This document shows, in pieces, positions 16,661-63,105 of a stretch of 64,000 nucleotides of DNA. A program made the translations under genes and the position numbers. The stretch spans positions 19,262,358 to 19,326,357 of the forward strand of contig OY987244.1 of assembly GCA_963920765.1 (NCBI GenBank), in the 5' to 3' direction. Numbering within the stretch: position 1 is the stretch's first letter; every line of letters begins with the position of its first letter. Under the pieces are notes generated by a model. That model was given only the letters and a program-made list of their open reading frames with translations. It was not told where the DNA came from and ran no database searches. This stretch comes from Ulota crispa (Eukaryota > Streptophyta > Bryopsida > Orthotrichales > Orthotrichaceae).

Positions 16661-16908
16661 TTAACCCTGGAGCGCCCCACAGGCAAAAAATGGGGCGCTC
16701 AGTTTTCAAAAATGTCTATGTTTGACTCTGATCTTCTTCTTAATGGTAAAGTAAAAGGACTTGTACTTTTTCATGTACCTTTAGGCATGTGTCTACTACC
16801 ACTCAAAAAAATTCAAGCTATTTGACTCTACTTAGGTAATACTTTTATTGGACTAAGTACACAAGGGTATGGATTTGAGTGAATATGGCCTGGGCGCTCA
16901 GGGGTTAA
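16661..16908. mobile_element. piggyBac-type MITE (TTAA) 1
   Basis: TTAA then CCCTGGAGCGCCC on the left; GGGCGCTCAGGGG then TTAA on the right. The 13-base ends are inverse with one indel. TTAA on both sides and a CCC start are the piggyBac hallmark. The 248-bp length leaves no room for a transposase. Confidence 0.85.
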
Positions 16909-17042
16909 TACAAAATATTCTATAATATTTTTTCCCACAAAAATGTTCTATGATAGCTTGTTGAAAGGCTAACCCTATGGATTTTTTACTTGAATTTTCC
17001 GAGACCCTAAAGTACACTAACTCTTAAACGCTTGGGTATAGA

Positions 17043-17471
17043 TAAGGTTACCTTAGTCACACCTTTGTCACCCCAATTCTCAATCTTCAAAGAATGAGGG
17101 CATCGCATTCTTTCCTTGATCTATGGAGGCCCTACTTTTTGAAAATTGAGAAGTTTATTTCTTCACCTTTAGAGGAGAAGAATGGGTGTGAAGAAGTTTT
17201 TGCACGTGAAATTTTTGTTAATGCTTGTCTTTTTTTCATCTAGTCTTCTTGCTTTCATCCTTCTTGTAGTTAGAAACCTTGGCTGAGTGTGTGAATGCAA
17301 CTTGCTTTTCTATTGCATCACCATTTTCTAAGTGAACTCATTCTCCATCTTCCATAGCTTACAAAAGGATAGTCACACCTTCATGACAAATTGCTTCCAT
17401 TACCTTGTATTTCCACTCCACAACTTCTCATTTTTCAAAAAAGTTTCATTCTTGGAGGTGTGACTACCCTA
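17043..17471. mobile_element. Possible AGGTAG-family TIR element
   Basis: The left end has TAAGGTTACCTTAGTCACACC and the right end GGTGTGACTACCCTAAG. The GTCACACC block and the AGG-TA start pair inversely, though the left end has extra bases. It is about 430 bp and non-coding. Confidence 0.5.
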
Positions 17472-21943: not shown

Positions 21944-22053
21944 TAGGAGGACCAATTCTTGGCTCCAAAGTTATTATCACATTTAAAAATTAAAAAAAAT
22001 CTAAAACAATAAAACTCTTTTGAGATAGTCCACATTGTAAGATGGAATAAAAA

Positions 22054-22639: not shown

Positions 22640-25600
22640 TCAACAACTTTACTTCATTTCTTTTCTCATCTCTTTTCTTTTTTCTTCCCTTTTCTCTTAA
22701 ACTTTTTCAAGATTTGCAATAGCAACCTCAACCTTTTGGTCTCAAGGCCGTTACACACAAAGACCCTTGTTATACTCTTCGTATAACGGACGCTTGAAGC
22801 TATTCTGAGGCAATTTGAAGTGAAATTTGGGTTGAATTGACCCCAAAATTGCATGATCTTCAATCCTAGTTTAAAACAACCCTTGAAACCATATCAGCTA
22901 TATTTATTGTTCAAACAGCCCCAATTTATGAAACCGTTGACTGCTAAAAGGCCCTTCCCAGTGTTACACTACAAGCAAGTGGAGCTAACTTAATTATGAA
23001 GATCTCAGTAGGGACCAGCAATCATAAAATTGGCTTAATTTTGCATTATATTTATCAAATATTGGACACAGCTTAAAAAAAACATGTGAACTATATAGCG
23101 ATAATATCTGAAAATTTTGGCTTAATAAGTTAGTAGTGATATTGACCACTTGAGCTGAAAGTGGAAATCATATCTGGGATTCCTGGTGGGGCACTCGAGG
23201 GAGTGGGGAGTGAGGACAGTTGCTCTCACAGAGACTGCTGGGAGACGCAGTCAATTAACTTACAGTAGAAGATTTCATTAGAAGATTTCAAATCAAAATC
23301 CCAGATTGTCTGCCTCTTGGCAGTACCAGACTAAGCTGCAAAATGATTGGGCAGAGCGACAACGCTTGTGAGTCCAAGGAACTTCAGATTTCAGAGGACC
23401 AAGTATTATTGGCTTTGTCATGGTGCTCGAAATCAGTTTATTATTGCCGGCCTCATTGCCCCCATTCAGTTTTCTTGTGCATTCAAATATTCAATCATGC
23501 GAAACTTTGACCCCGTAAAGGTACAGCCCACTGCTGCCCGAACCAGAGCTTCGCCATTTCTCAACAATGACTGCAGGTTTTGTAAAGTCAGCTTAGGAGA
23601 ACTGACCTAAATACCCAACTGGTATCCAAAAACCGACCCTCATGAATCCACATGATCTTAAGTAGTTACATTTCAAAATATTCATTCCAAAATGCTCCAC
23701 TATAAAACATCGAAAACACGAAACTATCATGGAAAATCTACCAATTGACTTTTGACGGTTTGACCTCTTGGAACACTTACTAGTAGAAACATCCAAGTTC
23801 TGACGTAATTTGATGCCACAATGCCACGTTTTCTGGTAAGATATTGGCATGTCATCTCTAAACTTCAATGCCATATAACGTGTAACTCATTCAACGGTGT
23901 CAACATACACATATCATTGACAGAACTGTTCACAAGATGAGAGTCTTCCATTCATGTTACAACATGAACACAAATTGTCTCACGATTAGTAAGTAAATTT
24001 CTAGGTTGTGCAACCTTCTAAGAATAGGAACATAAGAGCAGCGTCGAGAACCAAGGGATGACAAATTGTTTATGTCAATTCATATTTGAGAAAGGGAAGT
24101 GAGTAGATACTGATACAATTTGCAGAATAAGAATCTTAAAACCCAACATAAGCTTACAGCAAAAATGGAAGACTGAGGATATCTAGGGGGGGCGCGGGGG
24201 AAGAGAGTGCCTCCTTCAGTGAGTCTCAACTATTCCTCATATCCAGGGTCAATAATCCACATCGTTCTGTGAGTTGAAGTAAAATACAAACTCTAAGATT
24301 TGAAAGATTCCTTGCTATCGCATCCCGGAATTCACAGCAAGATACATTTAAGTTACTTTCGTGCACCAAAGTCCGTAATACCACGGCACTAATGCTATCT
24401 GTCAAATGACCCTGACTCCTGATTCTCGATACGAGAACTCAATCATTCTCAAACGCTCCCCTACATCACAATTCAACCAATCGCGAACTCTTCGTACAAA
24501 AAATCCTTACGGGAATAAAACAGGGGACGGCGGTGTTTATTTCCATTAATTTGGTGAGATATACATTTGAAAGAAAACCCCTTTAGGAGAAAAAGAATCG
24601 TGGACTCTTCGTGACAGAGTCTCCGATGCCAAGTCTCCGATGCCAAGATTGATTAAGTTAAAATCTAATTGGCCTTCTATATCACAAGTGGCCCAAGTCA
24701 CTTATTTCCTGATTTGGCTGCTACCGTACTTCAATATATTAGCCCTAAGACGTCACTTTAGTTCCTGGCGGGATGTCTTAAGAATCACGTAACACATAAG
24801 AAGCAGGCTGGCATGGATGCACGACCACTCACAATCAAGAGTTTTGAAACTTGGGCAAGAATCAAATAGACCTTCATACCTAAACCTCCGCTTCAAGCAA
24901 GCATAGAAGACACTTGCTATTGCAGATAAGTACAATCCATGACCCGCATGGAGGAAGGACCCCTGCCATAAAGCTACCAACTCAACGCCTAAGTGGGAAG
25001 AGAGATTCTGGGGAATTAGGGTGACGTGTAAGGGATAAGCAAACGACATTCCAGATTTCACTACTCACCTGCAAAGAGTGTACGTAGAGCTGACTTACAT
25101 CGAATACAATCTGGATCAGATGCACAGTATGCCATCGGCAATGAATGGTTCTGCTGCTGCAGCGTTGATGTGCACTCACTTTTATATATAGTGCAGTATG
25201 CTTACGTAAGCACAATCCGTACCTGCAGATCGGAACATAAACGGAACCCTGGCAAATCGATCACCTGGACTGTTCAGGATTTTCATAAACTACTTTCACT
25301 GCAAAAGTGCGTATTAATGCAAGCTCTACAGCTATTTTATATGAAGTGCAGAAAAAGTTAGTAAAACGCACATAAGGAACTGTGTTCTTTCAACTACCGG
25401 TACTTCGTTTCTGAATCATATACTATATCTCAATCCCCTAATATTTAAATTCGTCTTTTGTCAATAACGTACATGTGGCAAGAACACCGCAATCACGAGC
25501 AGCATTCAAGACCGATTAAAAAACGCTTACGTCCTAAAGAAGCGACGAGTTCTCCCATCATCAACACCCTAAGGGTCAACGACCATCCCGTAACCACAGG

Positions 25601-29509: not shown

Positions 29510-29742
29510 TTAACCCCAAAAGGATTGAGTGTGCCACTGCGACCAGTATAATACGAGGTGTTTTTCTTGTATTTGGAATGGATCCACAGCTCTACTACAT
29601 TTGAGATCAACAAAGAAGTTGGAGAATAAATCAAAGAGATTCTAGTGAGCTACTTGAGATCCCAAATTAGTATTTCTTACTGATAACAAACACCAATTAT
29701 ACAATAGCTTATATATTATGCCTATGGTCCTTTAAGGGTTAA
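29510..29742. mobile_element. piggyBac-type MITE (TTAA) 2
   Basis: TTAA-CCCCAAAAGGA on the left; GGTCCTTTAAGGG-TTAA on the right. The ends pair with a few mismatches. It is 233 bp and non-coding, with TTAA on both sides. Confidence 0.65.
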
Positions 29743-29835: not shown

Positions 29836-29985
29836 TTAACCTTTAAACGTCCCAAATGCCCTCTATGGCCGTTTGTCCACCGTATATTGATTTGACAAAA
29901 TGCGTTGTTCAGTAGTTTGATTGCGAGGGTATTTTCAAAAAATACGGTCTCGTAGCTTAGCTCCCAAGGGCCGTTCAGGGGTTAA
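29836..29985. mobile_element. piggyBac-type MITE (TTAA) 3
   Basis: The left end is TTAA-CCTTTAAACGTCCCAAA and the right end GGGCCGTTCAGGGG-TTAA. The pairing is partial: CC-T-AACG-CCC. At 150 bp it is among the shortest of the group. It ends 110 bases before the large piggyBac element. Confidence 0.6.
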
Positions 29986-31259
29986 TGCTACCTTAACTTA
30001 TCTCACTCATGTCTGCTATAATTTGGTCTCAAACAAATGCAAAACCATTGAATGCAGGTCCTTGATGTGCAAGCTTGATTGATTTGAGTGGGAGTTAACC
30101 CTACGCTGCCCACGGTCCGTTTCAGCTCCTTGTCCACAGTTATACAGGGTTGCAAAAAGGGGAGGCACGGTCAAAATTTTGTGAATGTCAGCGCAGATTT
30201 CTCTGTGTAGTGGGGTCTTCATTTCAGCAAGAAGAGTACACTGCATAGTAGAAGCAAGTTTCATGGTTATATGTCTTAGAATTTTGCAAAATTCACCACA
30301 AGAGAACAAGCTAGACTTTGTTTGAAAAGAAGAATGTTGCACTTCGGGAATTGTACAATTCGTCAAACCCACTGGAATTTTGTGAAAATTGGAGGGTGAG
30401 TCTCATTCATTGTTAGCAATAATCCTCCAAAATTTGAGCATCAACAAAGCAATTGTTCAACCCCGGTGTGACATGAAGATGAGTCCACGAGAAGGTCTAC
30501 TATGGGAGGTTACCGAGAAGCACTTGCTGCCAATGCAAACCTTTACCAGCTGCCTCAGTGTGCTGCCGCTGCAATATGAAGTATTGGACAAGGACCAAAA
30601 TTGTTGAGACTTCTGAGAGCCACTTGATGTCAAGAATGCAATAGAAAAGCTAAGGAGGAAAGCATTACTTCTGATTCCATTTGTAGGATTCCAAATACAC
30701 TGTACACTCAATGCAATGTTGGTCCAAAAAATCCTCAACTCCAAACGCAATTCCAAAAATTATGAGCTTGCAAGGGAGATCTAGAGTTCCAAAATTCCTT
30801 GGCTCATGAGAAACACACTACACGACGGCAAACTGAAGAACATGCAAGGCTTGTGAACGACAATAGCTTGCCTGCAACTAGCTACACCAACTCAAAATTA
30901 ATCTACCACACTAGTAACGAAGGGAATGGAATCAAAACTTGGCCATGCCTCCCACCCGAGTCTGCAAGATCTTCTCCCCAAAACAAGCTTGTGAATCACT
31001 GTCACAAGCCCAAGCCACCAACCACTTCAGCAAAGAAAGGAAACCGCATCAGTTTGAAGGAGAAGGTGACAAGGGCGAGCCTGCCCAAAAGTTGCTTTAG
31101 AAACAAGGCTTGAAGTGAGGCGTCTTGAAACGCGCACGCCTGCCGCTGCGACTCATAGATCTAGGCTTGAGTTCTGGGCTAGCCGCTTGAATCCACACTA
31201 TAGCCAAGGACACCCACGACATCTATTAGTTATGTTTTAGGAAAACAAACTGCACGCTC

Positions 31260-33165
31260 CGATGCTTGAAGTGCCCATTTCTTGGATGAGTGAACCTTTG
31301 CAAAGCAGAGGTCCTGGCACATAAATACAAAGCCACACGCAAGGCAGTACCCCGCTTGCTTGCACTTGCAAACACAGCAACGCTAGTGGAGCTCTGTATG
31401 GGTTTGTACGTGATGAATTGAGGAGGGATTCTGATTCCAAGGGCAGCAGGTTCGAGGCATATTTGTGTGCGGAGTGATCAAACCAAATGCAACTTCATAG
31501 AGAAAATCAACCCTCCAAATTCTCTTGCCACCCCTACTACTTCAATCCTGATGATAACATACCCATGCATTCTGCAAGATGGAATCTACCATGAACATTA
31601 GAAACCAATGCTACCACTTATTACTGTGGAATTGGATAGTATAGTATCCTCGCATTTGATCAATGCGGTCCACGCCGCACATGTTGGATTGGTATTCCAC
31701 TTGCTATGGCATGGTGGAGATTTCTTCATGCTTCCCCTTCAGCCATCAAAGCGCCACAGCAGGCCCTACAAGGTCTGCGGATGTGCTCAGAAAAGCAACC
31801 GATTTGGAGTCATACCAAACCGAGGCTGCCATTCTTCCACTTGCATGTGTGGCCCAAAACAGAGTAGAGCGTGGGTGCTCTCTTTTCTTGAATCTCGTCA
31901 TCAATGTGGGAAAGCCAACGCGCCATCCTTTCACAGTGCTTGTAGTATAGATACCCCTTCGCATTAACCCATCAAACAGAGAGGGGGAACAAAAGAAGTT
32001 ATCCCCATAGGCAGCGTAGCCCAGACCCTGCAATCCGCTTGTTAGCTGGTGAACAATTTGCTCCCCTAAGCCCACTTCCGTCTTGCCTGCTTGCTTTCCC
32101 AAATAAAAAGTGACGTTCCACATATAACCTGACTCTAGGCACACTACAACCCAAATTTTAAACCCATAACATGTGGGTTTAGCCAGCATATACTGCCGGC
32201 ATGGTGACCTAAAGCCCTTGTAGGCCACCATAATTTTGTCATAGGTCAACCACTTCTATAGACTGTACAACCTCTAAGACGCTTCCACAAAATGCTCTAG
32301 CAACCACCTTACTTTGAAGAGCTTGTCATACAAAGGATCTTCTTTACCTTGGTAAGCGGTGCTATTATCTACGTAGTGAATGCAACGGAGAAGACTCTCA
32401 AAACAGTTTCTAGAGAGAACCGAGGTAATGATGGCGCATCTCTAGAAAGGGTTCTCTCTCTAGTAGTCCCTGATTGACGGTGACAATTTTAGCCCCATCA
32501 AGATCGTTACACCAAAGAAAGCTCTAATCTCAACTGCTGTTGTTGGCATCCACCAAGGCCCACCGTTCATCCTAGCAGGCTTCCCCCTCCGTCTGGGATC
32601 AGCCAAATTTGTACAAGGCTATTGTGCATAGACAATAGTCTCGAAGACAATACAATGCACAGACACGTCATCCAGCCATCGATCAAAGTACGACTTTGCA
32701 AAAGGCTTGTTGCAAATATACTGTTGTGCAGGTCCAGGAAACGAGCCTCTAAAATTAATTTGGTCACAAAGCAAATGCAGGCAACTCTAATCCCACTCAA
32801 AATCTTGATATACATACCGGATTTGTTCCAAAGCGCCTACTTGGATTGGATCTATGTATGTGTACTCACGGAACCAACCAACGTCCAAAGGCTCTACGTC
32901 ACTATTGGCTAACTCTTCTTCATCAAGCAAAAGCCAATCTGAGTTGTTTTTGTCAGAAGAGTCAATACTTGAGAAATCGGAGAAGTCAGGCATCCAGTTG
33001 CTCTCTTGTGAATCATAGGTCCATCCATTGCTGACATCAACATGGCCTCCAGATGGTGTTCCTTGAAATGCAGGCAAAGGTGTATTGAGGCCATCTCCAC
33101 CATCAATCTTGAACATGCACCCCTCCCATTTGTTGCTTGCCACTGCCACTTGGTTTTCCAAGAGA
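31260..33165 (-). pseudogene. piggyBac transposase (DDE_Tnp_1_7), broken
   Basis: A cut-and-paste transposase that would act on TTAA ends. Family blocks appear in order on the minus strand but in changing frames: an acidic N-terminal region (32787-33161), FFGVTILMGLKL and RDYW near 32480, CIHYVDN near 32380, then an open block at 31746-32249. That block carries TYDKIMVAYKG, ESGYMWNV, GYAAYGDNFFCSP and VWYDSKSVAFLST, which hold the three catalytic Asp (residues 4, 83 and 147 of the block). Next come MCGVDRIDQMRGYY near 31660 and a Cys-rich tail at about 31290-31380 (CVCKCKQAGYCLACG, then C-x3-C), as in active piggyBac proteins. At least four stops or frame changes separate these blocks, for instance stops after residue 167 of the open block and just before it. 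Confidence 0.88.
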
Positions 33166-33446
33166 TCAATAGAGCCTTATACTATGGTTGCTGGACTAGT
33201 GTGAATCATGTCCTCCACTAGAGCGGTAACTGGCAATTCCCCGGGGGAACGTGGAACCAGAACATGTTGCCGGCAGTCATCTACTCGCCCACTGAATTCC
33301 TCGCTGATGGGTATTGCCTCAGTTGCAGCAAGGTCAGTCACTCAATCACCATATTTAGAAGCACTGGCGACATAATTGAAGGCGTTGTACAGGTTGATGG
33401 CAAGTGTAAGCGCCAATGCTATTGAAATTAGTCCTTGCAATGCAGA

Positions 33447-34690
33447 TCAATCAGCTGGCATGGACGGTGATGCCTGCCGTCTACGTGGTCCACCTTGTCT
33501 CACTTGTCGTTCAAGGTAATTGCACCTGGATCCAAGCAACCGCGACGGTGACCTTGAGTAACATTGCTCCCACAAGGCGCACAGATTGTTCACATCCCCC
33601 AATGTGTGGACCAAACCGCAAGCAGGACAATTTCTTGTTACCACTCGCGATGCCTCTGAGGATTGCAAAACAAGGGGCAATGTGGGTGTAGGCAGAATTG
33701 GAGACGGCACCCAGCCCCTTGGCTTTTTAGATGCCTTTCCCTTATCCTGTCTCGCTTGGCTTGGCTCTGCAAGTGGCTCACAAAATTCCCCATTTTCAAG
33801 AGCCCCTCCCTGTGAATTCGAAGCTTGTGATTGCAAACCCCGTCCACCCAGTCGAGACCCCTTCCAAATTGAGCCTTGTGGCTTCCTAGTTGCCTTATTG
33901 CAACTCGCTCCCCCTTGCTTTGTAACTGCCTCATTGCATTCCCCATTGCCAGAAGCCTGTAATTGTAAACCCAAATTTTGCGAGTGCAAATCCCAACCAC
34001 CCAACTGAGACACCTCACCAAGTATTTCCAAACATTGTCTAGCTTTGGTAGCCCCCCCTCCACCTCCCCGACGACACCCACCATGTCTTTCTCGTCCACC
34101 CCATCGAGGGCCCTCTTGCCCTGCACCCTCTTGCAATGGCATCCCACAACCGTTGTCCGTGACCACAAAGCCAATTTCAATCGACAAGGTTGGTGTCCAA
34201 GTCTCAGGTATGGCAGATTTGCTTTGTGCTTTGAAGTTGGTCATTGCTGGTATTGCCGCTGCTTCTACGATTGCCTCCATAAGCTCCCCCCTTTGAGTGG
34301 ATGCAATGTCCGTCCTCGCAGCACCCTTTGTTTTGGCTGCTCTCTTCATGTTGAAGCGAATCTGGCCACTGCTTTCTCCGTAAAAAATCGTTTAGAAATG
34401 GGGGAATCCCTCGCTCATCTCCTTCTGGGTATTGCTCTCTCCACCCAAGGAATTTTGCAATCTGCCATCGACAGAGGTACCTCCAGTTCCAATTTGTGGG
34501 CTTCAAAGACCAACAATGCTTTCTCCCTAGCGGAGGCAAACTCAGTAGGAAATCCTCACGTAAGCATTTCACTATGTTCTGGGCGGTGGCGGGTGATGCT
34601 CCCCTATGAAGCGCCCAATGGAGCAAGTCCTCTTGCACCTGCAGGATCTCCTCCTTTATAACGTGTTGAACCTCCAACGTAGTTGACATC
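33447..34690 (-). CDS. Uncharacterised reading frames in the piggyBac element
   Basis: Two overlapping frames run toward the transposase: about 34204-34690 (starting MSTTLEVQHVIKEE) and 33447-34349. The second, up to 300 residues, is rich in Gly, Gln, Ser and Cys. It contains an imperfect internal duplication (LGGWDLHSQNLGLQLQASGN versus LGGRGLQSQASNSQGGALEN) and later CPACGLVHTLGDVNNLCALW, whose paired Cys suggest a small zinc-binding knuckle. The frames probably belonged to one gene, either a long N-terminal part of the transposase or a separate passenger. I do not recognise the family. Confidence 0.45.
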
Positions 34691-35603
34691 TTGAAGCTAA
34701 ACCCTAATTGGAAACACAATCCCACAAATCAAAGATCGTTGTGTGTGAGAGTACTGCACCGCCTTGCTCCCTCCACTTTGTAGCCCCCCAAGAGCGCCAC
34801 TCTCTCAACCCAATTCAAAGAATGATTCAATACAAACCGCTTCCCACTCTCCCTACTCGTATTGCCTCCACATTGTACTTGAGCACCTTTGGATCCTCCC
34901 CTGAATCCGCTCTTGAAACCTTGCGTTGTTGTCCTCCACAAACCAAAACAAGGCGGAGGTTGTAATCGAAGAGTTGATACGATCAATTTGCGCGTACCAA
35001 AAATTGCCCCTACACCATGCGCAAGTGTGAGCCGCCTCGTAATAAGGACCACATGCTAACGGTCTACCGGTCACTTTTGGGACATTCAGACCAACTCCAA
35101 AGTCCCAAGTCTAATTATTGCTAAATCTGCCAAGAATCTGACTCATTGCAACACTCAAATTGTTCATGTGAAATCCCTCCTCACTCACAAAATTCCTTAG
35201 AACCCTGCCCCACAATCTAAAACACAGAGAGGAGTCACCAGGATGTTGAGAAGGGCATTCAAAAAAGCGGTGCGGACAGAATATGGCCGCATGGGCGGCC
35301 TAGGATTAAGTTACTTACAGCTGTGCGGCTTGTGCCTTACAAAGTTTATTCTGTTAAAAACAAATCTGAATTTACCATTGCACCGAAATGTTCATTGGTG
35401 GGTCTAGGACTTTGTGAAGGACGTGCCAAGCTGCCTCCACGCTGTAGTTTAACAAATGCAAATGTTTTTAATCAAGGCTGCTTATTCTTAACGGTTCATT
35501 TATGGCAACGGTGACATTGAATGATGTGATTTCTTATCAAACTGTAAATACAATTTGAATGAATACAATAAATTTTCAAATATACTCTTCTATGCTCGTC
35601 TAG

Positions 35604-36028
35604 TAAGGGCATCTCCAATGCAGTAGTAAGAGAGGCAGGCAAAAGCTTGTGCAGTGCTTTCAACCAGACTTGAGCAAAAACATGGGTTCCAATGCAGTAG
35701 GTAAACTATACTGCATTTTTCAGGGCTCCCTACAGAAGAGCCCCTCCCCTACAAATATTCACTATTTGGAGAGTCATGCATACCACTCCAGCTCTGACTT
35801 TGACGCAATTTTAGGGAATTTCAGATACTTCTGACATGAATCAACCACATATAAGCACTTTAAAAAGACATAAACTATTAAAATACTGTGTTTAGTGAGT
35901 GTCATAATTTATGTGCATTGGAAGGTGGTGGATTGGGAAATAGCCCTGCTTTGTAAGAGAGCTTGCATTAGACACGCGCTGGCAGGTTTTCAAGAGCCTA
36001 TTTTCCAACTAGATTGGGGATGCCCTAA
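35604..36028. mobile_element. PIF/Harbinger MITE, copy 1
   Basis: TAA then GGGCATCTCCAATGCAG on the left; GGGGATGCCC then TAA on the right, so a three-base TAA duplication with inverse ends. The interior matches 49524-49952 in inverted orientation at high identity, including AAAAGCTTGTGCAGTGCTTT and TGAGCAAAAACATGGG. About 425 bp, non-coding. Confidence 0.88.
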
Positions 36029-36119
36029 GGGTAGCTGGGACACTGTTGCAGATTCTATGAGCCACGGTGCTATGAAAATTTGGGGAGGATTGCTTGCCTG
36101 GGCAGCCCAAAAACTTCTT

Positions 36120-36828
36120 TAAAAATTACATTTTTTTAAAATTAAAATTTGAAATTGGTTCTTTAGATTTTTTTATAAGTGAGAAGCTTTGAATCTATCA
36201 ATTTCAATCAATGAGATAAAATTTATGAGGAGTTTTTGTTTGCAGGCACTTATGGATCCTCTACTCTAAAATAAATTTTGAAGTCCTTTATTTTACTCAA
36301 TTTTCATTACTTTGGAATAAAAATTAAACCAAAGGAAGTTGATTGTTTATCACAACATTATGACCGTTGGGATTTGAATTTTTCATTTCAATAATTAAAT
36401 TCTTAACAATTTAGTGATTTGACTCATTCTCTACTTCTTTTTACTTACTATGTTTTTCCCATGTGTTGTATAGTTCCAATTGATTTGAAAATTCTCCCAC
36501 ACATACCTAACTTGATCTCCTACATGGAAAAAAAAAGCACAACTTTGGGTAGAGCAACCTTTTTGTTATAAGAGTGGTCAAAGGCTTTTGAAATTTTTGG
36601 GCAGCATGGAAAAAAACTTATTTTTTCACTTTAGATGTAAATATCTCACTCCTCTCCATTTGGAATGAGCTGGTTTTTTTCCCATGAGTACCTCTTCTAG
36701 TCTGGAGCAAGATCCTACGGTTGGATTTTGCAAAAACAAAACACAAAATCCCTTTTTACTAAACCTCGTAGAAGTGGCAATTTTTAGTGATTTTCATAGA
36801 AAAAAGGGCGTGATCCTTTAGAGGTTAA
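36120..36828. mobile_element. piggyBac-type MITE, sub-family B, left-truncated
   Basis: The right end GATCCTTTAGAGG-TTAA is preserved. The body matches 59305-59899 and, inverted, 47195-47870 (CTCCCACACATACCTAACTT, CAATTTTTAGTGATTTTCA). The left terminus is missing near the Harbinger element that precedes it. Non-coding. Confidence 0.7.
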
Positions 36829-42429: not shown

Positions 42430-43057
42430 TTAACCGCTAGATGTCTGAGTCACCCAATTTGCGTGTCCACTATACTTTGAAATTCAATGATCCTAATTAA
42501 GTTCCTATTTTTAGTAGTTTATATTTTTAAATTATTCTTTTGAAGTTTAGTTTTAGCATCAAAATTTTGATTTTGAAAATAATTAATTATTATTTTTTAT
42601 TCAAGATTTTGTGCTAAGGTATTGGATTTTTGCAATATTGAGAACTCTTTGAAATGAGCCTCACAAATATTAAATTTTGGAGAAAATTTTACTTTAGAAA
42701 TTCATTTTAAAAATTTGTAGAAGAGATTTTGAAAAGCCGCAAAGTGATTGGAGTTATGTATGTCGTGTTCTTTAACCTTGTATTTTTTTTGGTGACCAAT
42801 TATTTAGATTCAACATGTGAAAAGAAGTTTGAAAGACTTTGAGTCATTTTTGTAGTTCTATCAAGTATTATGATCTTTCACTCCATAAGTAATATTGTTG
42901 TATTTTATTTTCCTATATAATTTTTAACATATCTAGTTTATACTTACAAGGTTACAATTTTAAAAAATGGATACAACTTATGAGAATGTTGACTTTTTGT
43001 TCAATTTAGATCAAATTCCTAGAAGCTTAAAAAAGGCCTCAAGCATTTAAGGGTTAG
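42430..43057. mobile_element. piggyBac-type MITE, sub-family A, copy 1
   Basis: TTAA-CCGCTAGATGTCTGAG on the left; CTCAAGCATTTAAGGG-TTAG on the right, a worn inverse pair. The interior (AATTATTCTTTTGAAGTTTAG and the AACATATCTAGTTTATA region) matches 43438-43989 directly and 46012-46646 and 59896-60500 inverted. About 630 bp. Confidence 0.7.
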
Positions 43058-43437: not shown

Positions 43438-43989
43438 TTAACCCCTAATTGCCTGGCACCAAATTTTGGTGTCTCCAATACTCTAAAGTTTAATAAACCT
43501 ACCTTAGTTACAATTTTTAGTAGTTTACATTTTTGATTTATTCTTTGTGAAGTTTAATTTTAGGATCAACAATTTGATTTTGAAAATGATTAATAATGAG
43601 TTTTTTATTCAAGTTTTTTTGCAAGAGTTTTGACTTTCTCTAGTGTTGAGAGTTCTTGGAAGTGAGCCTCAAATACACTAGATCTTGGAGAAAAATTTAC
43701 ACAAAAAATTCATTTGAAAAATTGTAGAAAAGATTTTGAAAAGCTATAAAGTGATTTGGGCTACGTATGTTATTTTCTTTAACCTTATATTTTTTGATGG
43801 TCATTTTTAAAAATCCAGCATGCAAAAAGAGGATTCAAAGGTTTCAAGTCATTTTTGTAGTTTTAACACCCTCATGATCAAACATTATAATCTTTCAATC
43901 CATTAGTGATATTGTTGTGTTTTCTTTTCCTGCGTGATCTCTAACATATCTGGTTTGAATTTGTACAGTTACAGGCATGTAGGGGATAA
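43438..43989. mobile_element. piggyBac-type MITE, sub-family A, copy 2
   Basis: TTAA-CCCCTAATTGCCTGGCA on the left; AGGCATGTAGGGG-ATAA on the right. The terminal pairs agree at about 11 of 13 bases. The body is a direct relative of copy 1 (TTTAATTTTAGGATCAACA, AGTGAGCCTCAAATACACTA). About 550 bp, non-coding. Confidence 0.78.
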
Positions 43990-44102: not shown

Positions 44103-44478
44103 TTAACCCCTAACTGTCCAAGAGGACAAAAATTGTCCTTTCAATGCCAAAAATGCACCCCAAGGGTGGAAAATGATTTTTTTTTCAATTTTTTTTCTTG
44201 AAAGTAGTTAGAGAGATGTGCTACATCATTGAATGCCAAAAATAGCTGCTTTTAATGCCTCCATGTTTTTTTAAACACCAATTTGTAAAGAGATGTACAA
44301 GGTCCCTCTTGCCCTTTTTGTGAGGGCAGGATACACTATTGACTTTTCCTTCTTTTGAGGAGAAAATTATCTCTCTTGGACACATGTCACAGGCTATTCA
44401 CTGCCCATGAACAGTGCACTCTCCTCGATCTGAGCCTTGGGTTGGCCACGGGTTCACGGTGAGTCCTTTAAGGGTTAA
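44103..44478. mobile_element. piggyBac-type MITE (TTAA) 5
   Basis: TTAA-CCCCTAACTGTCC on the left; GTCCTTTAAGGG-TTAA on the right. TTAA is intact on both sides and the ends pair loosely. 376 bp, non-coding. Confidence 0.7.
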
Positions 44479-44631: not shown

Positions 44632-45051
44632 TAAGGTAGCAGCATCCATAAGCGTTGCGTCCCCATGCCTGTCACTTGACAATGGCAGGGCTAATCAATA
44701 AAAAAACAAATGGTTGTGGGTGACTGAGTGATGGTTATGGGTGATGAAATGATGGTTATGGGTGATGAAATGATGGTTGTGGGTGACTAGCATGAGGTTT
44801 TGAGTACCCATCTCACTATTTAAGAACCAACAAGCCTTGTTTTTAGCATCTCTTACACATAGTTCCTACAATTTCAGTGATTTTGGACTTCAAAATTTTT
44901 TTGTGAACAAATACTTGCAGTTGGAACTTTGAAATTGATGCCAATATTTTTGATTTCCATTTCCTAACATGCAATATTTTATTCAAAATTAGACAATTGT
45001 TTTACCTACTCCAAAACCCTTATTTCCATGCTTATGGGTGCGCCTACCTTA
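44632..45051. mobile_element. AGGTAG-family element (AGCATCC subtype)
   Basis: TA-AGGTAGCAGCATCCATAAG on the left; CTTATGGGTGCGCCTACCT-TA on the right. About 16 of 20 terminal bases pair. It contains a small 21-bp tandem array. The right half is an inverted relative of the start of 39686-40823. Confidence 0.82.
44711..44790. repeat. 21-bp tandem array inside the TIR element
   Basis: The unit TGGTTATGGGTGATGAAATGA occurs twice exactly (44732-44773). It is flanked by a diverged unit on each side carrying GTGACT in place of GTGATG. About four units in all. Confidence 0.9.
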
Positions 45052-46011
45052 TACATGAGTTTCATCTTGTGTTGCATATCAAAACAGTGACAACAAATAT
45101 AATATAAACGATTGCTACTTTGATTGCTTTTATGAACCTTGCATTTGTATGTTGCATGTGTATAGTGCTTATGATGAAAATGATTTTGTGTTTTTTTAAT
45201 AGGCAATTACTACAAAGAACCTATTAGACATGCAAATGTATGGAGCTCCAATCCAGCCTTCAATAATCAAGGAAATCTAATTAGTGAGAACCAATATAAA
45301 CATGTTAATTCAATTTGGATGATTTTGGAGGAACCATGCACATTGTGTGTAATCATTTATCGTAAAATAGAGATTTCTTTGAGAACAAAACATCAAAGAG
45401 TGAATAACTTGACGTTTGTATTGAAATTATAAATATGAATCCGAAACACAAATCTAAGAGTGACTTGATTTTTTTTTATAAATCAACTTTGTTTACCATA
45501 CATGTTAAACAAGAAATGAGAATTTTCTCAACTTTGCAAAGATTGGATATGTATAATTGGAAGAAGGTGGTGTTTTATGATGAAATAATGATAAACTGAA
45601 ATCTCTTGAAATTTTACAGAATTTTATATACATCACATGCAATCATACAAATAGTAAAACATGGTAAATGTTTATTAATTTTTTGTGGTTTTGAAAACAA
45701 GAGGCAATAGATGTAAAGTACGATTTGATAAGTGATGTTTTTGCACTCATTTTGATAGATTTTGAGCAATGTTTTGCATTAACTTTGATACAACCTACAT
45801 AATGTTAAAAATATCGAGTGAAAGTTAATTTTATCACACAAGGAATGAAACTTGCTAAAACATCATAGTAAATGTTTTTTTTGTTTTGTTAACTACTGAG
45901 ACATGTTTCAATATTATAGACGTCCTTTCCTTATACATGTACTAAATATTCTTTGGATATATTTTATTTTATATGAAATGATGTATAGTTATATTGAGTT
46001 TCCATTTTTTT
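45052..46011. other. AT-rich intergenic DNA
   Basis: No gene and no paired repeat end is recognised. Only short chance open frames occur. Confidence 0.3.
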
Positions 46012-46646
46012 AAATCACTAAATGCTTGAAGGTCTTTTTTGAGTTTCTAGGAATTTGCTCTAAACTAAACAAAAAGCCAACATTTTGATAAGTTGTATCA
46101 AAATTTTTAAAAGTTGTAAGCATACAAATTCAAACTAGATGTGTTAAACAAGAAAAGAAAACACAACAATATCACTCCTATGGATTGAAAGATTATAATT
46201 TTTGATCAAGGGCGTTAAAACTCCAAAAATGATTTGAAGTCTTCCAATCCTCTTTTCACATGTCAAATCTAAAACGTTGGTCATCAAAAAATATGAGGTT
46301 AACAGACATAACATACATAACTCCAATCCATTTACGGCTTTTCAAAATCTCTTTTACATTTTTTAAAAATGAATTTCTAATGAGAAATTTTCTCTAAGAT
46401 CTAGTGTATTTGAGGCTCATTTTCATGAACTCTCAATACTAAAAAAAGTCAAGATTGCAATGAACACCCTTGCACAAAACCTTGAATAAAAAAAGCACAA
46501 TCAATAATTTTCAAATTCCGGTTTTTGATGCTAAAACTAGACTTCAAAAAGAATAATTCTAAAAAGCAACATACTAAAATTAGCATATTAGTTGGGTTTT
46601 ATTGAACTGAAAAATATTGTTGGCACCTGGGCATTTAGGGGAAGAA
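46012..46646. mobile_element. piggyBac-type MITE, sub-family A, worn inverted copy
   Basis: Ends CACTAAATGCTTGAAGG on the left and CTGGGCATTTAGGGG on the right. The flanking TTAA sites are lost. The body is the inverse of 42430-43057 and runs parallel to 59896-60500 (AAGTTGTATCAAAATTTTTA, CTCTTTTCACATGTCAAATC). About 635 bp. Confidence 0.68.
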
Positions 46647-47194: not shown

Positions 47195-48145
47195 TGAACC
47201 CCTAAAGACCCAAGCCCTATTTTCTGTGAAAATCACTGAAACTGTCTTTTTTGGGAATGAGTAGAAAGGTAGGCAAAAGAGTTTTTTTTGGAAATTCAAC
47301 CACAAGATCCTATCTTAGACTATGGGAGGTATTTATGTGAAAAAAATCAACTCATTCTAGATGTAGAGGAATGAGATATTGACATTTGAAGTGAGAAAAA
47401 TAGTTATTTTCCCATCTACTCAAAAATTTCAAAAGCCTTTCACCGCTCCCATATCAAAAAAATTGCTATATGCAAAGTTGAGGTTTAATTTTCCCATGTA
47501 CAAGACCAAGTTAGGTAAGTGTGAGAGATTCTCAAATGAATTGGAGGTGTGAATCATACTTTGTAAAATCTTGCAATGCCATAAGGTCATGAAAATTGCA
47601 TACACACTAGGCAAAATTGGAGGATATATGTAAAATTCAAAAATTTGAATTATTGTGATCCAAATGGTAAAAACCAAGGAATCTTTTTCAACTGCAACTT
47701 GGAAAAAAAAGAGTCAAAAAACAAATACACAAATTGCTTAAAAAAGTATAGCACCAAATTTTACAAGGGGCAAAAGGAATGGAGGTTTGGGAGTCCCATA
47801 CCTACCCGCAAACTAAAACTTCTCATAACTTTCATCTCATCAATCAAAATTGAATGATTCAAATCTTTCTACATAAGTGTAAATCTAAAAAACCAATTTC
47901 AAAGTTTTGTTTCAAAAAAATGCAATTTGTTTTTTTGAGCTACTTGATTCTCCTTCATTTATTCAAAAGTTCATGCATAAATTCTTCAATAAATGTTGGA
48001 ATGAAGAAAAAAATTAGATGCCCACGCATATTTTTGAATTCCCCATCTTCCATAAAAGTTTCAAAATATCACACAAGGTAGTTTAGCTATAAGTACATAC
48101 CCTAAATCCTAACCCCGAGGGACCACTTGAGCCTTTAGGGGTTAA
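47195..48145. mobile_element. piggyBac-type MITE, sub-family B, full-length copy
   Basis: TGAA-CCCCTAAAGACCCAAGCC on the left; TGAGCCTTTAGGGG-TTAA on the right, with one change in the left target site. The left 600 bases match 59305-59899 inverted at very high identity. The right 350 bases match 54261-54614 directly. About 950 bp, non-coding. It is the uninterrupted reference for the split copies elsewhere in the window. Confidence 0.85.
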
Positions 48146-49523: not shown

Positions 49524-49952
49524 TAAGGGCATCTCCAATCCAGCCGCGATTCTAGCCATAGGAAGTGTATCAGCCAGTGTATGACTTGGAGTCAGATACA
49601 CAGCGAGCAAGGCTATTTCCCGAGTACAGTAGCCCCAATGCAAATTAGATCTAACACACACTAAACATTAGTTTTTAATAATTTACGTCTTTTTCAAGTG
49701 CTTATGTGTGGTTGATTCATGTTAGAAGTATCTAAAATTCCTTGAAATTGCGTCAGAGTCAAAGCTAGAGTGGTATTCATAACTCTCCAAATAGTGAAAA
49801 TTTGCAAGGGAGGGGCTCTTATGTGGGGAGCCCTAAAAAATGCAATATGGTTTAAGTACTGCATTGGAGCCCATGTTTTTGCTCAAGTCTGGTTGAAAGC
49901 ACTACACAAGCTTTTGCCTGCCTCTCTTACGGCTGCATTGGGGATGCCCTAA
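49524..49952. mobile_element. PIF/Harbinger MITE, copy 2 (inverted)
   Basis: TAA-GGGCATCTCCAATCCAGCC on the left; GGCTGCATTGGGGATGCCC-TAA on the right. TAA is duplicated and the ends pair well. It is the reverse complement of 35604-36028 over nearly its whole length. 429 bp, non-coding. Confidence 0.9.
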
Positions 49953-50378: not shown

Positions 50379-50700
50379 GGGAAAATTTCATGGATACCCC
50401 TGAAGTTTGCAATAATTTCCCAGATACCCCTGCTTTTTCAGAAATATCACATAAACCCTTGGACCAAAATTTTAGGCGTTTGTTTTGTTGTGCATGCCAC
50501 TTCCCTTCTTCCTTTGTGCGCATGCACAATTAAAAAATAAAGAATTGTGTGCACAAAGGAAGAAGAAATTGACATGCACAACAAAACAAACGTCTAAATT
50601 TTTTGACCCAAGGGTATTTGCAATATTTCTGAAAAAGCAGGAGTATCTATGAAATCTATGAAAATATGGCAAACTTCAGGGGTATCATTGAAATTTTACC
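50379..50700. mobile_element. Foldback MITE, copy 2
   Basis: GGGAAAATTTCATGGATACC on the left pairs with GGGTATCATTGAAATTTTACC on the right. The pairing continues inward (CCCCTGCTTTTTCAGAAATAT with ATTTCTGAAAAAGCAGGAGT; TTCCTTTGTGCGCATGCACA with the inverse GTGTGCACAAAGGAAG). Almost the whole 320 bp forms one hairpin. It is related to 7538-7890. Confidence 0.82.
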
Positions 50701-51469: not shown

Positions 51470-51893
51470 TTTTACTCAAACCTGCGTTGGGAGGTTTACT
51501 CAAACCTGCGTTGGGAGGTTTACTCAAACCTGCGTTGGGAGGTTTACTCAAACCTGCGTTGGGAGGTTTACTCAAACCTGCGTTGGGAGGTTTACTCAAA
51601 CCTGCGTTGGGAGGTTTACTCAAACCTGCGTTGGGAGGTTTACTCAAACCTGCGTTGGGAGGTTTACTCAAACCTGCGTTGGGAGGTTTACTCAAACCTG
51701 CGTTGGGAGGTTTACTCAAACCTGCGTTGGGAGGTTTACTCAAACCTGCGTTGGGAGGTTTACTCAAACCTGCGTTGGGAGGTTTACTCAAACCTGCGTT
51801 GGGAGGTTTACTCAAACCTGCGTTGGGAGGTTTACTCAAACCTGCGTTGGGAGGTTTACTCAAACCTGCGTTGGGAGGTTTACTCAAATCTAC
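51470..51893. repeat. 24-bp minisatellite, 17 identical units
   Basis: The unit TACTCAAACCTGCGTTGGGA plus GGTT is repeated seventeen times from 51473 to 51880, with no difference I can see, plus a partial eighteenth. Because 24 is a multiple of three and the unit has no stop, several frames stay open on both strands as eight-residue peptides (FTQTCVGR, YSNLRWEV, LLKPALGG, and LSKPPNAG on minus). There are no unique spacers, so this is not a CRISPR-like array. No start context, splice signal or family supports translation. Confidence 0.97.
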
Positions 51894-52824: not shown

Positions 52825-53946
52825 TTAACCCTTAAATGTCCGTACTTCCAAAAAGTGGATGTGCTTTGATCAACCCTAATTGTAACTTTCAAATTATCAA
52901 TTTTTGATATGTGGTTAAATCAAAGAAAACCAAGCTTAACAAGTTTCCTTCCTATTCCAATTTTTTTTTTGAAAAATGTTAAGAATTGAAAGAGTTATTG
53001 CCATTGAAAGTTCCAAGTGTGAGAATCCAAATAACACAATATGGTGTGTTTTTCATTCATGCTTTCTACTCTTTAAATCACTACAAGGGGGCTATGTCAA
53101 TTCAAACATTTCTAGTCAATTAGGACTACTTGACTCAGACATATTTATGTCAATTTGGACATTTTTTGGTCAATTTTTGGTCAATTTGGACAAATTGATT
53201 TGGACACTATTTTCTTGTAGTGAATGCATTTTAAATTTGAACTACAAAATCATGTTTCTCATTCTACCATTCATTTATAATAGAAATTATAGATTTTTTT
53301 AATATATATGTAAATAGATAATGAATGTGTCTTCCAGCAAAAAATATCAGAATTTTATAAATTGATTAAATATAAGGATAAACTTGGTTAGATAGGCAAA
53401 TTTGGCTTGAGATTCTTTGTTATGGCTGTTTTGGGTGTAAAAAATAAAATAACCAATTGAATTTTTTCACACTTATCTTTAATGCTACTTGTACCTCTTG
53501 AAAAAAATTCAAGTAATTCAGATTTTTTTTGCTATTTTAACTTATTTATGTTCATTTTTTGAAAAGAAAATGATAAACATTACAATTTTTCATGAAACAA
53601 ATTGAAATTTCTTGTAGTGATATGTCATTCATAGTTTCAAGCAACAAAAATACAAAATTGTTGTTTGCACACACTTTAAAAGGCAAAATTGAGCTTAGAA
53701 ACCTTAGTGTTGGTTATGGGTGCAATGGCAATTTGCTGTTTAAAAATTCACAACTTATTCTCACAGTATCCAAATAATACATTCAAAAGTACAAAGTCAT
53801 CTTTTTCTATTCCTAATGGGATCGTATAATTTACTAGCTATTTGTTAATAGTCATCTAAATTCCCAACTCGGGGCATACAATGTTTTTGAGCATGGTCCC
53901 TCTTGACCTCATTATCTTGATTTTGCTGTGGGCGCTTAGGGGTTAA
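52825..53946. mobile_element. piggyBac-type MITE (TTAA) 6
   Basis: TTAA-CCCTTAAATGTCCG on the left; GGGCGCTTAGGGG-TTAA on the right. The ends are similar only in the first eight bases or so, so the pairing is a best guess. About 1.1 kb of very AT-rich, non-coding DNA. Confidence 0.55.
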
Positions 53947-54260
53947 CCCAAACCATTGCATTTTGATCAACATATTGTCTTCCGTCTTGCAATTTGTGTG
54001 ATTCTAAATTATCTAAGTATTTCCATGTTGTGGTTTCTTTCTTAATAGTGTATTATGCTGTATGCTGCAGATTTACCTGTCCCATATGTTCTATGTCAAC
54101 CCAAGACATGTCTAGAATCTAGGAGTGAATGGATCAAGAAGTATATTCATGTTCACATGTTGTACATCCTTGTAATTACATCTATTCCTTTCCACAAGTT
54201 TTCCAAGATTTCAGAGGTGATGGTTATGGGGACATTGACGCTTATGGGTGTTCTTACCTT

Positions 54261-54614
54261 ACCTACAAACTAAAACTTCTCAGAACTTTCACCACATCAA
54301 TCAAAATTGAATGTTTCAAATCTTTCCACATATATGTAAATGTAAAGAACCAATTTCAGATTTTTATTTGAGCAAAATGCAATTTAAAAAAAGTTTTGGG
54401 CTGCCCACTCTCTCCTGTTTTTTCAAAAATTCATACTTAAATTCTTCAATAAATGTCGAAATGAAGAAAAAATTAGATGTGCACATACATCTTGGGATTC
54501 CCCACCATACTCACAATTTTCAATGAATTTATAAAAATTAGTTTAGTCCTAGGTACATGTCTAAAATCCCATTTGTCCCTTGCCTAAGGGGACAGTTGGT
54601 CCTTTAGGGGTTTG
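54261..54614. mobile_element. piggyBac-type MITE, sub-family B, right half
   Basis: Matches 47801-48145 directly (AAACTAAAACTTCTCA, ATCAATCAAAATTGAATG) and ends GGTCCTTTAGGGG followed by TTTG, a changed target site. The left edge begins exactly where an AGGTAG-type right terminus (GGGTGTTCTTACCT-TA) stops, so the copy was split by another element. Confidence 0.72.
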
Positions 54615-54764: not shown

Positions 54765-55138
54765 TTAACCCCTAAATGAATTTATCCATTTTGAAATAGT
54801 CAAACTTCATTGAGCTAGTATGCTGAGAGGTTGGAGAGGGATTTAAGTCACTGATTGGAGCTAGGAATGCCGAGGGGTTGAGCTAGGAATGCTGGAGGCT
54901 GAGTTGGGATGCTATAAGCTGAGCTAGGATGTCAAGAGGTTGAGAGGGGGCTATGATAGTACTAAGGCTTAGGCTCTGATAGCCAACGTGAGTGGAGGGT
55001 GATGACTAAGCTAAAGATGGTGTCTATTCTAATGGGTTTCTTCGAATGTTCTAACACGTATCCACAACTAAACTAGGACTTCCTAAAAATGGTGGAAGAG
55101 TGGCATTGCCAAGTCATAATCCGTCTTCCTAGGGGTTA
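54765..55138. mobile_element. Possible piggyBac-type MITE (TTAA) 7
   Basis: TTAA-CCCCTAAATGAA on the left and TTCCTAGGGG-TTAG on the right. Only seven or eight terminal bases pair. The interior holds short direct repeats (GAGCTAGGAATGC and GAGCTAGGATG variants). The boundaries are tentative. Confidence 0.4.
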
Positions 55139-59297: not shown

Positions 59298-59304
59298 AAG
59301 TATT

Positions 59305-59899
59305 GGACTCTCCATAACCTTCGTTCCTTTTGCCCCTTGTAAAATTTGGTGCTATACTTTTTTAAGCAATTTGTGTATTTGTTTTTTGACTTTTTTTTCC
59401 AAGTTGCAGTTGAAAAAGATTCCTCGGTTTTCACCATTTGAATCACAATAATTCAAATTTTTGAATTTTACATATATCCTCCAATTTTGCCTAGTGTGTA
59501 TGCAATTTTCATGACCTTATGGCATTGCAAGATTTTACAAAGTATGATTCACACCTCCAATTCATTTGAGAATCTCTCACACTTACCTAACTTGGTCTTG
59601 TACATGGAAAAATTAAACCTCAACTTTGCATATAGCAATTTTTTTGATATGGGAGCGGTGAAAGGCTTTTGAAATTTTTGGGTAGCAAGAAAAATAACTA
59701 TTTTTCTCACTTCACATGTCAATATCTCACTCCTCTACTTCTAGATTTTTTTCACATAAGTACCTCCCATAGTGTAGGGTAGGATCTTGTGATTGGATTT
59801 CCAAAAAAAACCTTTTTGCCTACCTTTCTACTCATTCCCCAAAAGCAGCAATTTTTAGTGACTTTCACAAAAAATAGGGCTTGGGCCTTTGGGGCTTAA
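59305..59899. mobile_element. piggyBac-type MITE, sub-family B, inverted half
   Basis: Inverse of 47195-47790 at very high identity, ending GGGCTTGGGCCTTTGGGGC-TTAA. Its left edge stops at an AGGTAG-type terminus at the position matching 47799, as in the 54261 copy but with the other half kept. Its terminal TTAA is shared with the next element. Confidence 0.78.
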
Positions 59900-60861
59900 C
59901 CCCTAAATGCCTGAGCCCTTTTTTGAGATTCTTGGAATTTGTCCTAGCTTGAACAAGAAGTCAAAATTTTAGTAAGTTGTCTCAAAAATTTTAAAATTGT
60001 AACCATACAGATTTAAACTGGATATGTTGGAGGTTACATAGGAAAAGAATACAGAACCATATTGTTCATTGGACTAAAAAATTATAATGTTTGATCATGA
60101 GGGTGTTAAAATTGCAAATATGACTTATAGTCTTTTAATCCTCTTTTCACATGTTAGATCTAAAAAGTTGGTCATCCAAAATATATACAAATAAAGAAGA
60201 CAATGTACAGAACTCCAGTCACTTTATGACTTTTCAAAATCTCTTCTAATATTTCTTAGAAAATGAACTTATAGTGTAATTTTTCCTCCAATATCTAGTA
60301 CATTTGAGGCTCATCTCCAAAAAGCTCTCAACACTATGGAACGTCAAAACTCAAGATCCTTGTACAAAATCTTGAATTGAAAAATCATAATTATTCAATT
60401 TTCAAAATCAAATATTTGATGCTAAAACTAAACTTGAAGAAGAACATTGCAAATATGTAAACTACTAAAAACAACAGCTTAGGTAGATTTGATGAATTTC
60501 AAAGTATTGTTGACACCAAAATTTGGTGCATTAATTTTTTAAACCATGGTCAAATTTACAAAATGTTGACAAAGATTGTGACCTAATGTATAGTAGGATG
60601 ACACTATTTTGTGAACGTAAGTTGGTGGGCCTATGAGCAGTGAGTCAAGATTTGGTGAGCAAGAATCAATTTTGAACTCAAAATCAATGATTTTTTTTTT
60701 AAAAATGTAAATGTTTCAAAAATAAAAGTTAAAAATACATAATCATAAGGCCATACATACACAATTTTAGATAAAATTAATGATTTTGACCAAAAATCTG
60801 AGCTCACGACTCACGGATCCCTGCTCACAATATATAGCATTCCCCCGCATTTAGGGGTTAA
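59896..60861. mobile_element. piggyBac-type MITE, sub-family A, full-length copy
   Basis: TTAA-CCCCTAAATGCCTGAG on the left; CCCCGCATTTAGGGG-TTAA on the right. Twelve terminal bases pair perfectly. The left 600 bases match 46012-46646 directly and 42430-43989 inverted. The right part matches a fragment near 7.9-8.1 kb. 966 bp, non-coding. Confidence 0.85.
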
Positions 60862-61352
60862 AAGACACAAACAAACTACGATTTCTTATGTGATTATGAA
60901 ACTCATGGAATGGTTGATTTCGACACGTGGACAATCTCTTCTGACGGCATTTTCGTTGGTCTTTGGCTACGAAAATTGATTTGAATTGCTCAAGATTCAC
61001 GGTGATGGGTCCTATATTACCAGCTGTCGTGTATTGCCCCAAGCCCAGTTACTGCTTACCTGCTCACATGTTCCGTTACACTCTGGAAGCTTTGCTTTGG
61101 TTCTCATTCTCAAATGTGCAAGAAGATTTGAGAGAATTTACAAATATTGCCCCAAAATAAAAAAATAGTTACAAACTGGCGCAGAACTTGAAAATGGTCA
61201 CAAAAGGGGGTTCATTCTCAACATTGCCGTTATCCTATTATTCATCTATTTGTCTCACCAGAGAAGGTTTGCCTCCTCAAAGTTGTAGTGGAGAATCAAG
61301 GACATCGAGAAAAATGCGGTAAAAAAGAAACATAACCTCTGTAAACTTGCAT
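60862..61352. other. Intergenic spacer
   Basis: About 490 bases of mixed composition. The overlapping short frames at 60963-61168 show no family motif. No repeat ends. Confidence 0.3.
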
Positions 61353-63105
61353 TCAACCCCTAAAAGCCCATTGTCCCTAGCTACCAGTGACACAGTGAGA
61401 TTTTGGGCAAGCCTACTTTATTGAGATTGATCAATTTTTTTAAAATTCTTAATTTAAAATAGAGTTCTGCAAGGGCTACGTCATGGTATAAGTTTTATTG
61501 AAATCAAAATTATGGTTAAAATGATAATGGTGATTTATGGGTTTATTTTGTTCAAGGGGCAATTTGGGCAAACCATTTTCCATAAACTTCTCCCAAAAGC
61601 AACCAATGAAAGTATGAACCTTCATTGGAGTACAATGCCCTTGCATATCTTTACACCCACCCCATTCTACCATTCCAAGAACTTAGCATTTTAAAGAATA
61701 TAATTGGCAATTTTATATTTTGTATTGTTGGCCTAAAATTCTTATACAATCCTAATCAAGCATACCAAGTTTGCAGTTCCAAAAATCAAAATTGTATTTT
61801 TGGTGAATTATTTTAAATAAAGTTCATGGTTTTACTTGACAATTGATTAAAACACATTGGTGATGAATTTTTGAGATTTGATTGCATGGGTATGTAGGAA
61901 ACATCCAAATGCACATCTTTCCTTTGAACCAAAATCTCCAAAAAGTTTCAAAATTCCTTCAATAGAGATTTAAGTGTTAGGCCCATTATGACCAAATTTA
62001 GTAAAACAAATATCTCCATATGGTAATTAGATTTTAATATTTGACTTATACATTGTGGTTAAGTTTGCATCTTTGAGTACAATAATATGTTTATTTTGCC
62101 AAAAACTAATTACGATATGGAGATATTTATTTTACTAAATTTGGTCATAATGGGCCTAACACTTAAATCTCTATTGAAGGAATTTTGAAACTTTTTGGAG
62201 ATTTTGGTTCAAAGGAAAGATGTGCATTTGGATGTTTCCTACATACCCATGCAATCAAATCTCAAAAATTCATCACCAATGTGTTTTAATCAATTGTCAA
62301 GTAAAACCATGAACTTTATTTAAAATAATTCACCAAAAATACAATTTTGATTTTTGGAACTCCAAACTTGGTATGCTTGATTAGGATTGTATAAGAATTA
62401 TAGGCCAATGATACAAAACACAAAATTGAAATGCTAAGTTCTTGGAATGGTAGAATAGGGTGAGTGTAAAGATATGCAAGGGTACTACATCCAAAGTAAT
62501 AATGCACTACATGAATCCATCATTCTTTATGATAAATACAATAAAATTTCAAATGTAGTAGCTACTAGAGGTTTAGTTTTTTTTTAGATTTTTTTAATGA
62601 TTTTCAATAAAGATAAGGGCTCTCAATCTACCATTTGGATCTTTGTAATATAAAATGAGCCCTTAGAAATTGGGTTTTCAAAAATTTCCAATGTAGCATG
62701 AATTTCAAGCACATGTTTGCAATACAATGCCATGTAGGGAGTGTTCCATGTCTTCATTGAAAATTTGAGGGGAACATGTCTAACATGATTTAGAGCATGT
62801 TGTACAACTCTTCACAACACACATGCTACAAATAATGTTCACAACATACAGTTAAAAGCGTTTGAGAATTTTGGGCAAAGGTAAAAAAAAGTTCATATTC
62901 TAACTTCAAATGATCATATCTCTCAATTTGTACAATCAAATGTCATGAAGTTTTCACCATGGCTCCTTGCATAAGGCTAATGTAAGATCTTACAATTAGA
63001 TTTGTAGAATAAAGATTAAAAAAAAAGTTTGGGATTAAATATTTGAAAATGGCAATTCTAAGTGTTTTTTGAGAAACTAAATAGGCCTAGGCGTTTAGGG
63101 GTTAA
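61353..63105. mobile_element. piggyBac-type element with a long internal inverted repeat
   Basis: TCAA-CCCCTAAAAGCCC on the left; GGCGTTTAGGGG-TTAA on the right, with one change in the left target site. At 1.75 kb it is the longest of the small TTAA elements. Its centre is a near-perfect palindrome with arms at about 61638-62035 and 62101-62483. There is no transposase, so the element is non-autonomous. Confidence 0.78.
61638..62483. repeat. Long inverted repeat (two ~390-bp arms, ~65-bp loop)
   Basis: The left arm (CCCTTGCATATCTTTACACC onward to TATCTCCATATGGTAATTAG) is mirrored by the right arm (TACGATATGGAGATATTTAT onward to GTAAAGATATGCAAGGG). A central run of about 170 bases, including TTTTTGGAGATTTTGGTTCA, looks identical between the arms. 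RNA crossing it would fold into a long duplex. Confidence 0.93.

Follow-up and report, generated by a model that had tools for sequence, protein, structure and literature searches.

piggyBac-like elements have been reported from fungi, plants and animals (PMC8086355, PMC10140906). By definition they carry terminal inverted repeats (TIRs) of 12–19 bp beginning with CC(C/T)T (PMC2872659), and their excision runs via hairpin intermediates, with joining at TTAA (PMC7351741). PiggyBac is listed as one of seven superfamilies of angiosperm MITEs (PMC10004981), and an automatic tally for the fern Ceratopteris counted 1230 PiggyBac repeats (PMC6890710). The accessible text of a survey of 207 plant genomes uses five MITE superfamilies, with piggyBac absent (PMC12550479), and elements of this class could therefore be missed or misfiled under such a scheme. 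In the literature we searched, which covered few subscription papers, no title or abstract described TTAA MITEs in a seedless plant. piggyBac elements and their MITEs are already known in plants, and the elements described here add to this known kind.

The window, that is, the whole stretch of DNA analysed, is 64 kb long with a GC content of 37.7%. Its host is likely a plant, as judged from a plant-like F-box/LRR gene at positions 1803–5115 and a fragment at 14753–15259 that matches Core-2/I-branching enzymes below the threshold. Rfam and tRNA scans of the window returned no matches. A previous sequence-only reading had proposed that the window harbors a swarm of short, TTAA-flanked elements. 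The end motif TTAACCCYTAAANGNCC, allowing a maximum of two mismatches, matches 25 times in the window, compared to 0.29 expected matches (mean of 100 dinucleotide-preserving shuffles, maximum 2) and a mean of 0.08 in a second-order Markov control (12 simulations, maximum 1). Twenty motifs with scrambled inner bases after TTAA gave 0–1 matches each at two mismatches; at three mismatches the real motif had 39 matches and the scrambles 0–7, with one exception of 19. Swapping TTAA for 11 other 4-mers yielded 1–17 matches at two mismatches, the highest numbers belonging to TTTA (14) and TAAA (17), each one base off TTAA. As exact words, TTAACCC occurs 14 times and GGGTTAA 9 times, against approximately three times each in Markov sequences. 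Because the motif was derived from the same ends, these controls test its recurrence and not its independence.

Altogether we delimited 17 elements, which bears out the proposed swarm. Thirteen of them have two ends and measure 150 to 1753 bp, in one further copy an end is decayed, and three are one-ended fragments. Exact TTAA target sites flank eight of the 13 two-ended elements on both sides, and in the remaining five a single base is changed on one side, as the sequence-only reading had noticed for some of them. Seven of the 13 are shorter than 800 bp and six are longer. The 17 elements cover 11.7 kb in total, and the 14 located within 36000–63105 occupy 11,097 of 27,106 bp, or 41%, so that the earlier description of a large share of this region holds. 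None of the 28 stop-to-stop frames of at least 120 amino acids in the window lies inside an element.

Six of the two-ended singletons have TTAA on both sides. These are E1 (16661–16908, 248 bp, ends CCCTGGAGCGCCC and CCCCTGAGCGCCC; 11 of 14 TIR bases matching), E2 (29510–29742, 233 bp; 9/14), E3 (29836–29985, 150 bp; 10/14), S1 (38615–39535, 921 bp; 10/14), S2 (44103–44478, 376 bp; 8/14) and S3 (52825–53946, 1122 bp; 9/14). The longest element, S5 (61353–63105, 1753 bp), is flanked by TCAA and TTAA, has a TIR of 12/14 and is palindromic at 90%. It contains an inverted repeat of 845 bp (61638–62482) whose arms are 97% identical over 328 bp, and an arm related to it lies at 63660–63754. Treated as single-stranded DNA, this repeat folds at z = −61.8, and it is a possible source of hairpin RNA.

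Across the 13 two-ended elements, the TIR pairs match at 8–13 of 14 bases. The best partners of 52 random TTAA sites reach 7–13 of 14, with at least 10 in eight cases, and S2 (8) as well as E2, A1 and S3 (9 each) would therefore not stand by their TIRs alone. This overlap is what might be expected if the elements were a product of chance in an AT-rich window with many TTAA sites and telomere-like CCCTAAA words, CCCTAAA being the plant telomere unit. Some single TIR pairs indeed do not exceed the best partner obtained by chance; as a whole, however, this explanation can be dismissed with near certainty, and is ruled out by the excess of the motif (25 against 0.29) together with long family alignments that extend to the ends. 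Since chance partners reach this range, the case rests not on each TIR but on the motif common to the ends, the paired TTAA sites and the alignments within families. Among the 25 matches are ten left ends, and for seven of them the next match is a right end 80–2000 bp away (label shuffles, mean 4.0; P = 0.025). One of the three others is the left end of A4, whose partner is hidden behind the end of B4, with which it has a TTAA in common. A strict TIR scan (12 of 16 bases and exact TTAA) returned five pairs, three of them parts of the S5 palindrome and two corresponding to the real MITEs S1 and A4; control 4-mers gave 0–19 pairs, and a criterion of strict TIR length therefore detects such elements poorly by itself. 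For the candidate ends at 705, 12074 and 54765 we found no partner better than chance. The TTAACCC at 54765, with an unconvincing best partner of 8/14, was excluded from the element set.

The sub-families A, B and C proposed previously are recovered by blastn alignment. Family A has four copies with 74.5–76.5% identity. A1 (42430–43057, plus strand, 628 bp; TTAA/TTAG, TIR 9/14) is 75–76% identical to A2–A4, and A2 (43438–43989, plus strand, 552 bp) is flanked by TTAA/ATAA with a TIR of 12/14. The end and the target bases of A3 (46011–46645, minus strand) are decayed, and it aligns to A1, A2 and A4 at 74.5–76%. A4 (59896–60861, minus strand, 966 bp) has TTAA on both sides and a TIR of 12/14, and is 74.5–76.5% identical to A1–A3. 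By eye, about 310 bp of extra sequence (about 60534–60845) separates its right TIR from the body of family A, and probably stems from a later insertion or from the exchange of an end.

The four copies of family B are 74–77% identical, except for B2 and B4 at 92%. Only B2 (47195–48145, plus strand, 951 bp; TGAA/TTAA, TIR 12/14) has two ends. B1 (36080–36828, minus strand) is one-ended and aligns at 74–77% to B2 and 74% to B4; the one-ended fragments B3 (54257–54614, plus strand) and B4 (59299–59899, minus strand) match B2 at 77% over 314 bp and 92% over 609 bp, respectively. The terminal TTAA of B4 is at the same time the left TTAA of A4 (59896–59899), as expected if one element targeted the target duplicate of another. 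In family C, C1 (37502–38403, plus strand, 902 bp; TTAA/ATAA, TIR 13/14) and C2 (51978–52564, minus strand and thus inverted relative to C1, 587 bp; TTAA on both sides, TIR 10/14) align in two blocks of 84% and 78%. Directly before C2 lies a 24-bp unit repeated 17.4 times at 100% identity (51471–51888), which is open in several frames.

Most pairs within families are 74–84% identical, which indicates that the swarm built up in layers long ago and not in a recent burst. The single MITE burst of the sequence-only reading thus gives way to several, mostly old rounds of amplification, as suggested by the identities of 74–92% inside the families; the B2/B4 pair is younger than most of the swarm.

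Other repeats are interspersed with these elements. A second family with TAAGGTAGNANCANCCATAA ends, apparently flanked by TA, is represented at 39686–40823 and 44632–45051 (7 matches, 0.35 expected), and single TAAGGTAGNANCANCCATAA ends at 54261 and 59298 cap the broken copies B3 and B4 at a nearly equal position of the B sequence. Two elements at 35607–36025 and 49527–49949 have GGGCATCTCCAAT ends, flanking TAA and 87% identity over 316 bp, and are suggestive of PIF/Harbinger MITEs. An element with long TIRs and ATACCCCTGAAGTTTGC-like ends is present in two copies, at 7585–7890 and about 50380–50690.

The element starting at 30095, whose extent and nature had been misjudged before, is a piggyBac-like transposon of 5215 bp (30095–35309; in the following called PB) with a broken transposase gene on the minus strand, TTAA on both sides and a TIR of 12/16. 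Looking from its left end at TTAA sites 500–7000 bp away, the best partner matches at 12/16 and the next at 7/16, and a best partner of at least 12/16 was reached for only six of 356 TTAA sites. The catalytic core of the transposase (31746–32255, minus strand) matches DDE_Tnp_1_7 (PF13843) in Pfam with an E-value of 3.9e-24 and the PDB entry 6x67, the T. ni piggyBac complex, with 2.4e-7. LTYD and GDNFF, presumably containing the first two catalytic aspartates, align to 6x67. On the same strand, a further piece in the same frame beyond stop codons (32463–32618) passes the cut-off for DDE_Tnp_1_7 (E = 6.9e-5), and another at 32277–32441 fails it (E = 6.7e-4) and had no piggyBac match in the PDB. 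The piece with the GVDRIDQ motif (31614–31703, minus strand) has no Pfam match and an E-value of 0.059 to the piggyBat entry 9c0f; it probably represents the region of the third catalytic aspartate. With nine stops in the 576 codons of the transposase frame, this copy is dead. PB also holds another open frame of 314 codons (33447–34391) without a Pfam match.

Searching for relatives of this transposase, we obtained no pattern matches in viral contigs and 96 in bacterial and archaeal contigs, none of which was confirmed. The 15-base pattern TTAACCCCTAAANGCC occurs exactly in 23 stretches of viral contigs, probably by chance given the very large collection.

The transposase remnant, the TTAA target and the CCC-type ends make the assignment of the MITEs to the piggyBac superfamily well supported by sequence, in agreement with the type proposed before. 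A point against it is that, among the 26 ends that the 13 elements have, only ten start with the piggyBac hallmark CC(C/T)T, as CCCT or CCTT, whereas 14 start with CCCC and two with neither. TTAA is also the target of Kolobok elements (PMC6004289), and the MITEs could on this ground be placed in that superfamily. We regard this as very improbable, since Kolobok ends begin with RR and those of T2-MITEs with AGGRR (PMC6004289), whereas none of the 26 ends starts with two purines and 24 start with CCCT, CCTT or CCCC. The transposase found is moreover of the DDE_Tnp_1_7 type, and Pfam scans of 19 window proteins, which were not aimed at a named Kolobok profile, gave no Kolobok match. Kolobok is thus largely ruled out by the end sequences.

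More difficult to judge is the relationship of the MITEs to PB. The inner TIR bases had been described as different from those of the 30095 element; this stands base by base, yet both have the layout CCC-N5-YGCC in common, which provides a modest link. In the PB ends CCCTACGCTGCCCAC (left) and TCCTAGGCCGCCCAT, CCC or TCC is followed by five variable bases and then by YGCC, in register with MITE ends, for instance CCCCTAAATGCCTGA and CCCCTAAGCGCCCAC. We scored the inner ends of PB with a weight matrix trained without PB on 31 ends, two of them out of register (B3 right, A3 left); among 796 other TTAA sites, 7.8% and 3.3% scored as high or higher, which is a modest signal. By blastn, no internal sequence common to PB and any MITE was found at an E-value of 1e-3, and no MITE is therefore demonstrated to be a deletion derivative of PB. 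It is a serious possibility, just short of an even chance, that a different, unseen piggyBac lineage moved the MITEs, and that PB, having ends of its own, is a bystander. This would fit the lack of internal similarity, the differing end bases 4–8, the only moderate match of the inner ends and the GC content of PB of 47% compared to 34% for 36–63 kb (39% for 1–29 kb). Against it, the ends of E1, E3 and S3 are intermediate between PB and the A and B types, as seen for the right end of S3 (CCCCTAAGCGCCCAC) and the left end of PB (CCCTACGCTGCCCAC). The common end layout is no more than a hint that the PB lineage moved the MITEs; their superfamily we regard as firm, and parentage by PB as loose.

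We are confident, though not certain, that these elements, which sit in a plant-like nuclear genome, are non-autonomous members of the piggyBac superfamily of DNA transposons, moved in trans by a piggyBac-type transposase, with the 5.2-kb PB as a dead relative of an autonomous source. The ends, TTAA pairs, families and transposase remnant are observed, while the mobilisation in trans and the transposase lineage responsible for it are inferred. Such an enzyme, encoded by intact relatives elsewhere in the genome, would bind the CCCYTAAANGNCC ends and pair them. As known for the superfamily, excision would then run via hairpin intermediates, and the freed element would be joined at a TTAA site, with duplication of the TTAA. 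The amplification of families A, B and C and of the singletons may date to different times, mostly long ago, with the non-coding copies spreading in trans until their source decayed.

We also searched within the window for empty sites using 18 queries of joined flanks. A single, weak match spanned the junction, for S1 (23077–23185; 68% over 109 nt), where the paralogue has TTAT instead of TTAA. The joined query scored 44, compared to a maximum of 34 for the single flanks and also for 20 shuffles against the whole window. Under the same spanning rule, five of 60 random joins also gave a match, several of them at their own locus, and the S1 match is no more than suggestive of an empty site.

The interest of the finding lies in the local density of the elements and in the co-resident transposase, whose remnant offers a handle for finding intact relatives. 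If the share of 41% over 27 kb held genome-wide, TTAA MITEs would be a main builder of the intergenic DNA of this plant. We raise only tentatively the idea of a plant lineage in which several non-autonomous piggyBac-type families form a major intergenic share beside what is left of their own transposase, and in which they escaped notice because the usual classifications of plant MITEs lack a piggyBac class.

With the angiosperm piggyBac-class MITEs, the elements have the superfamily and a likely plant host in common (PMC10004981). For Ceratopteris, whose genome has the same GC content as the window (37.7%), the accessible part of the report describes no ends or families, unlike here (PMC6890710). 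PB is longer than both the full-length piggyBacs of corals, 2.2–3.7 kb (PMC2872659), and the complete ones of bees, 2.23–3.52 kb (PMC10140906). The coral CMITEs, as reported, resemble the present elements in the TTAA duplication, in the occurrence of several families beside piggyBac transposase genes and in short CCC-type TIRs, e.g., CCCCTCAGTGTCCG and CCCTTAGAGACCTA, and the ends of coral family III also begin with CCCC, like 14 of the 26 ends here (PMC2872659). They differ in being about 100 bp long with a conserved core, whereas the two-ended elements in the window range from 150 to 1753 bp and have family-specific interiors (PMC2872659).
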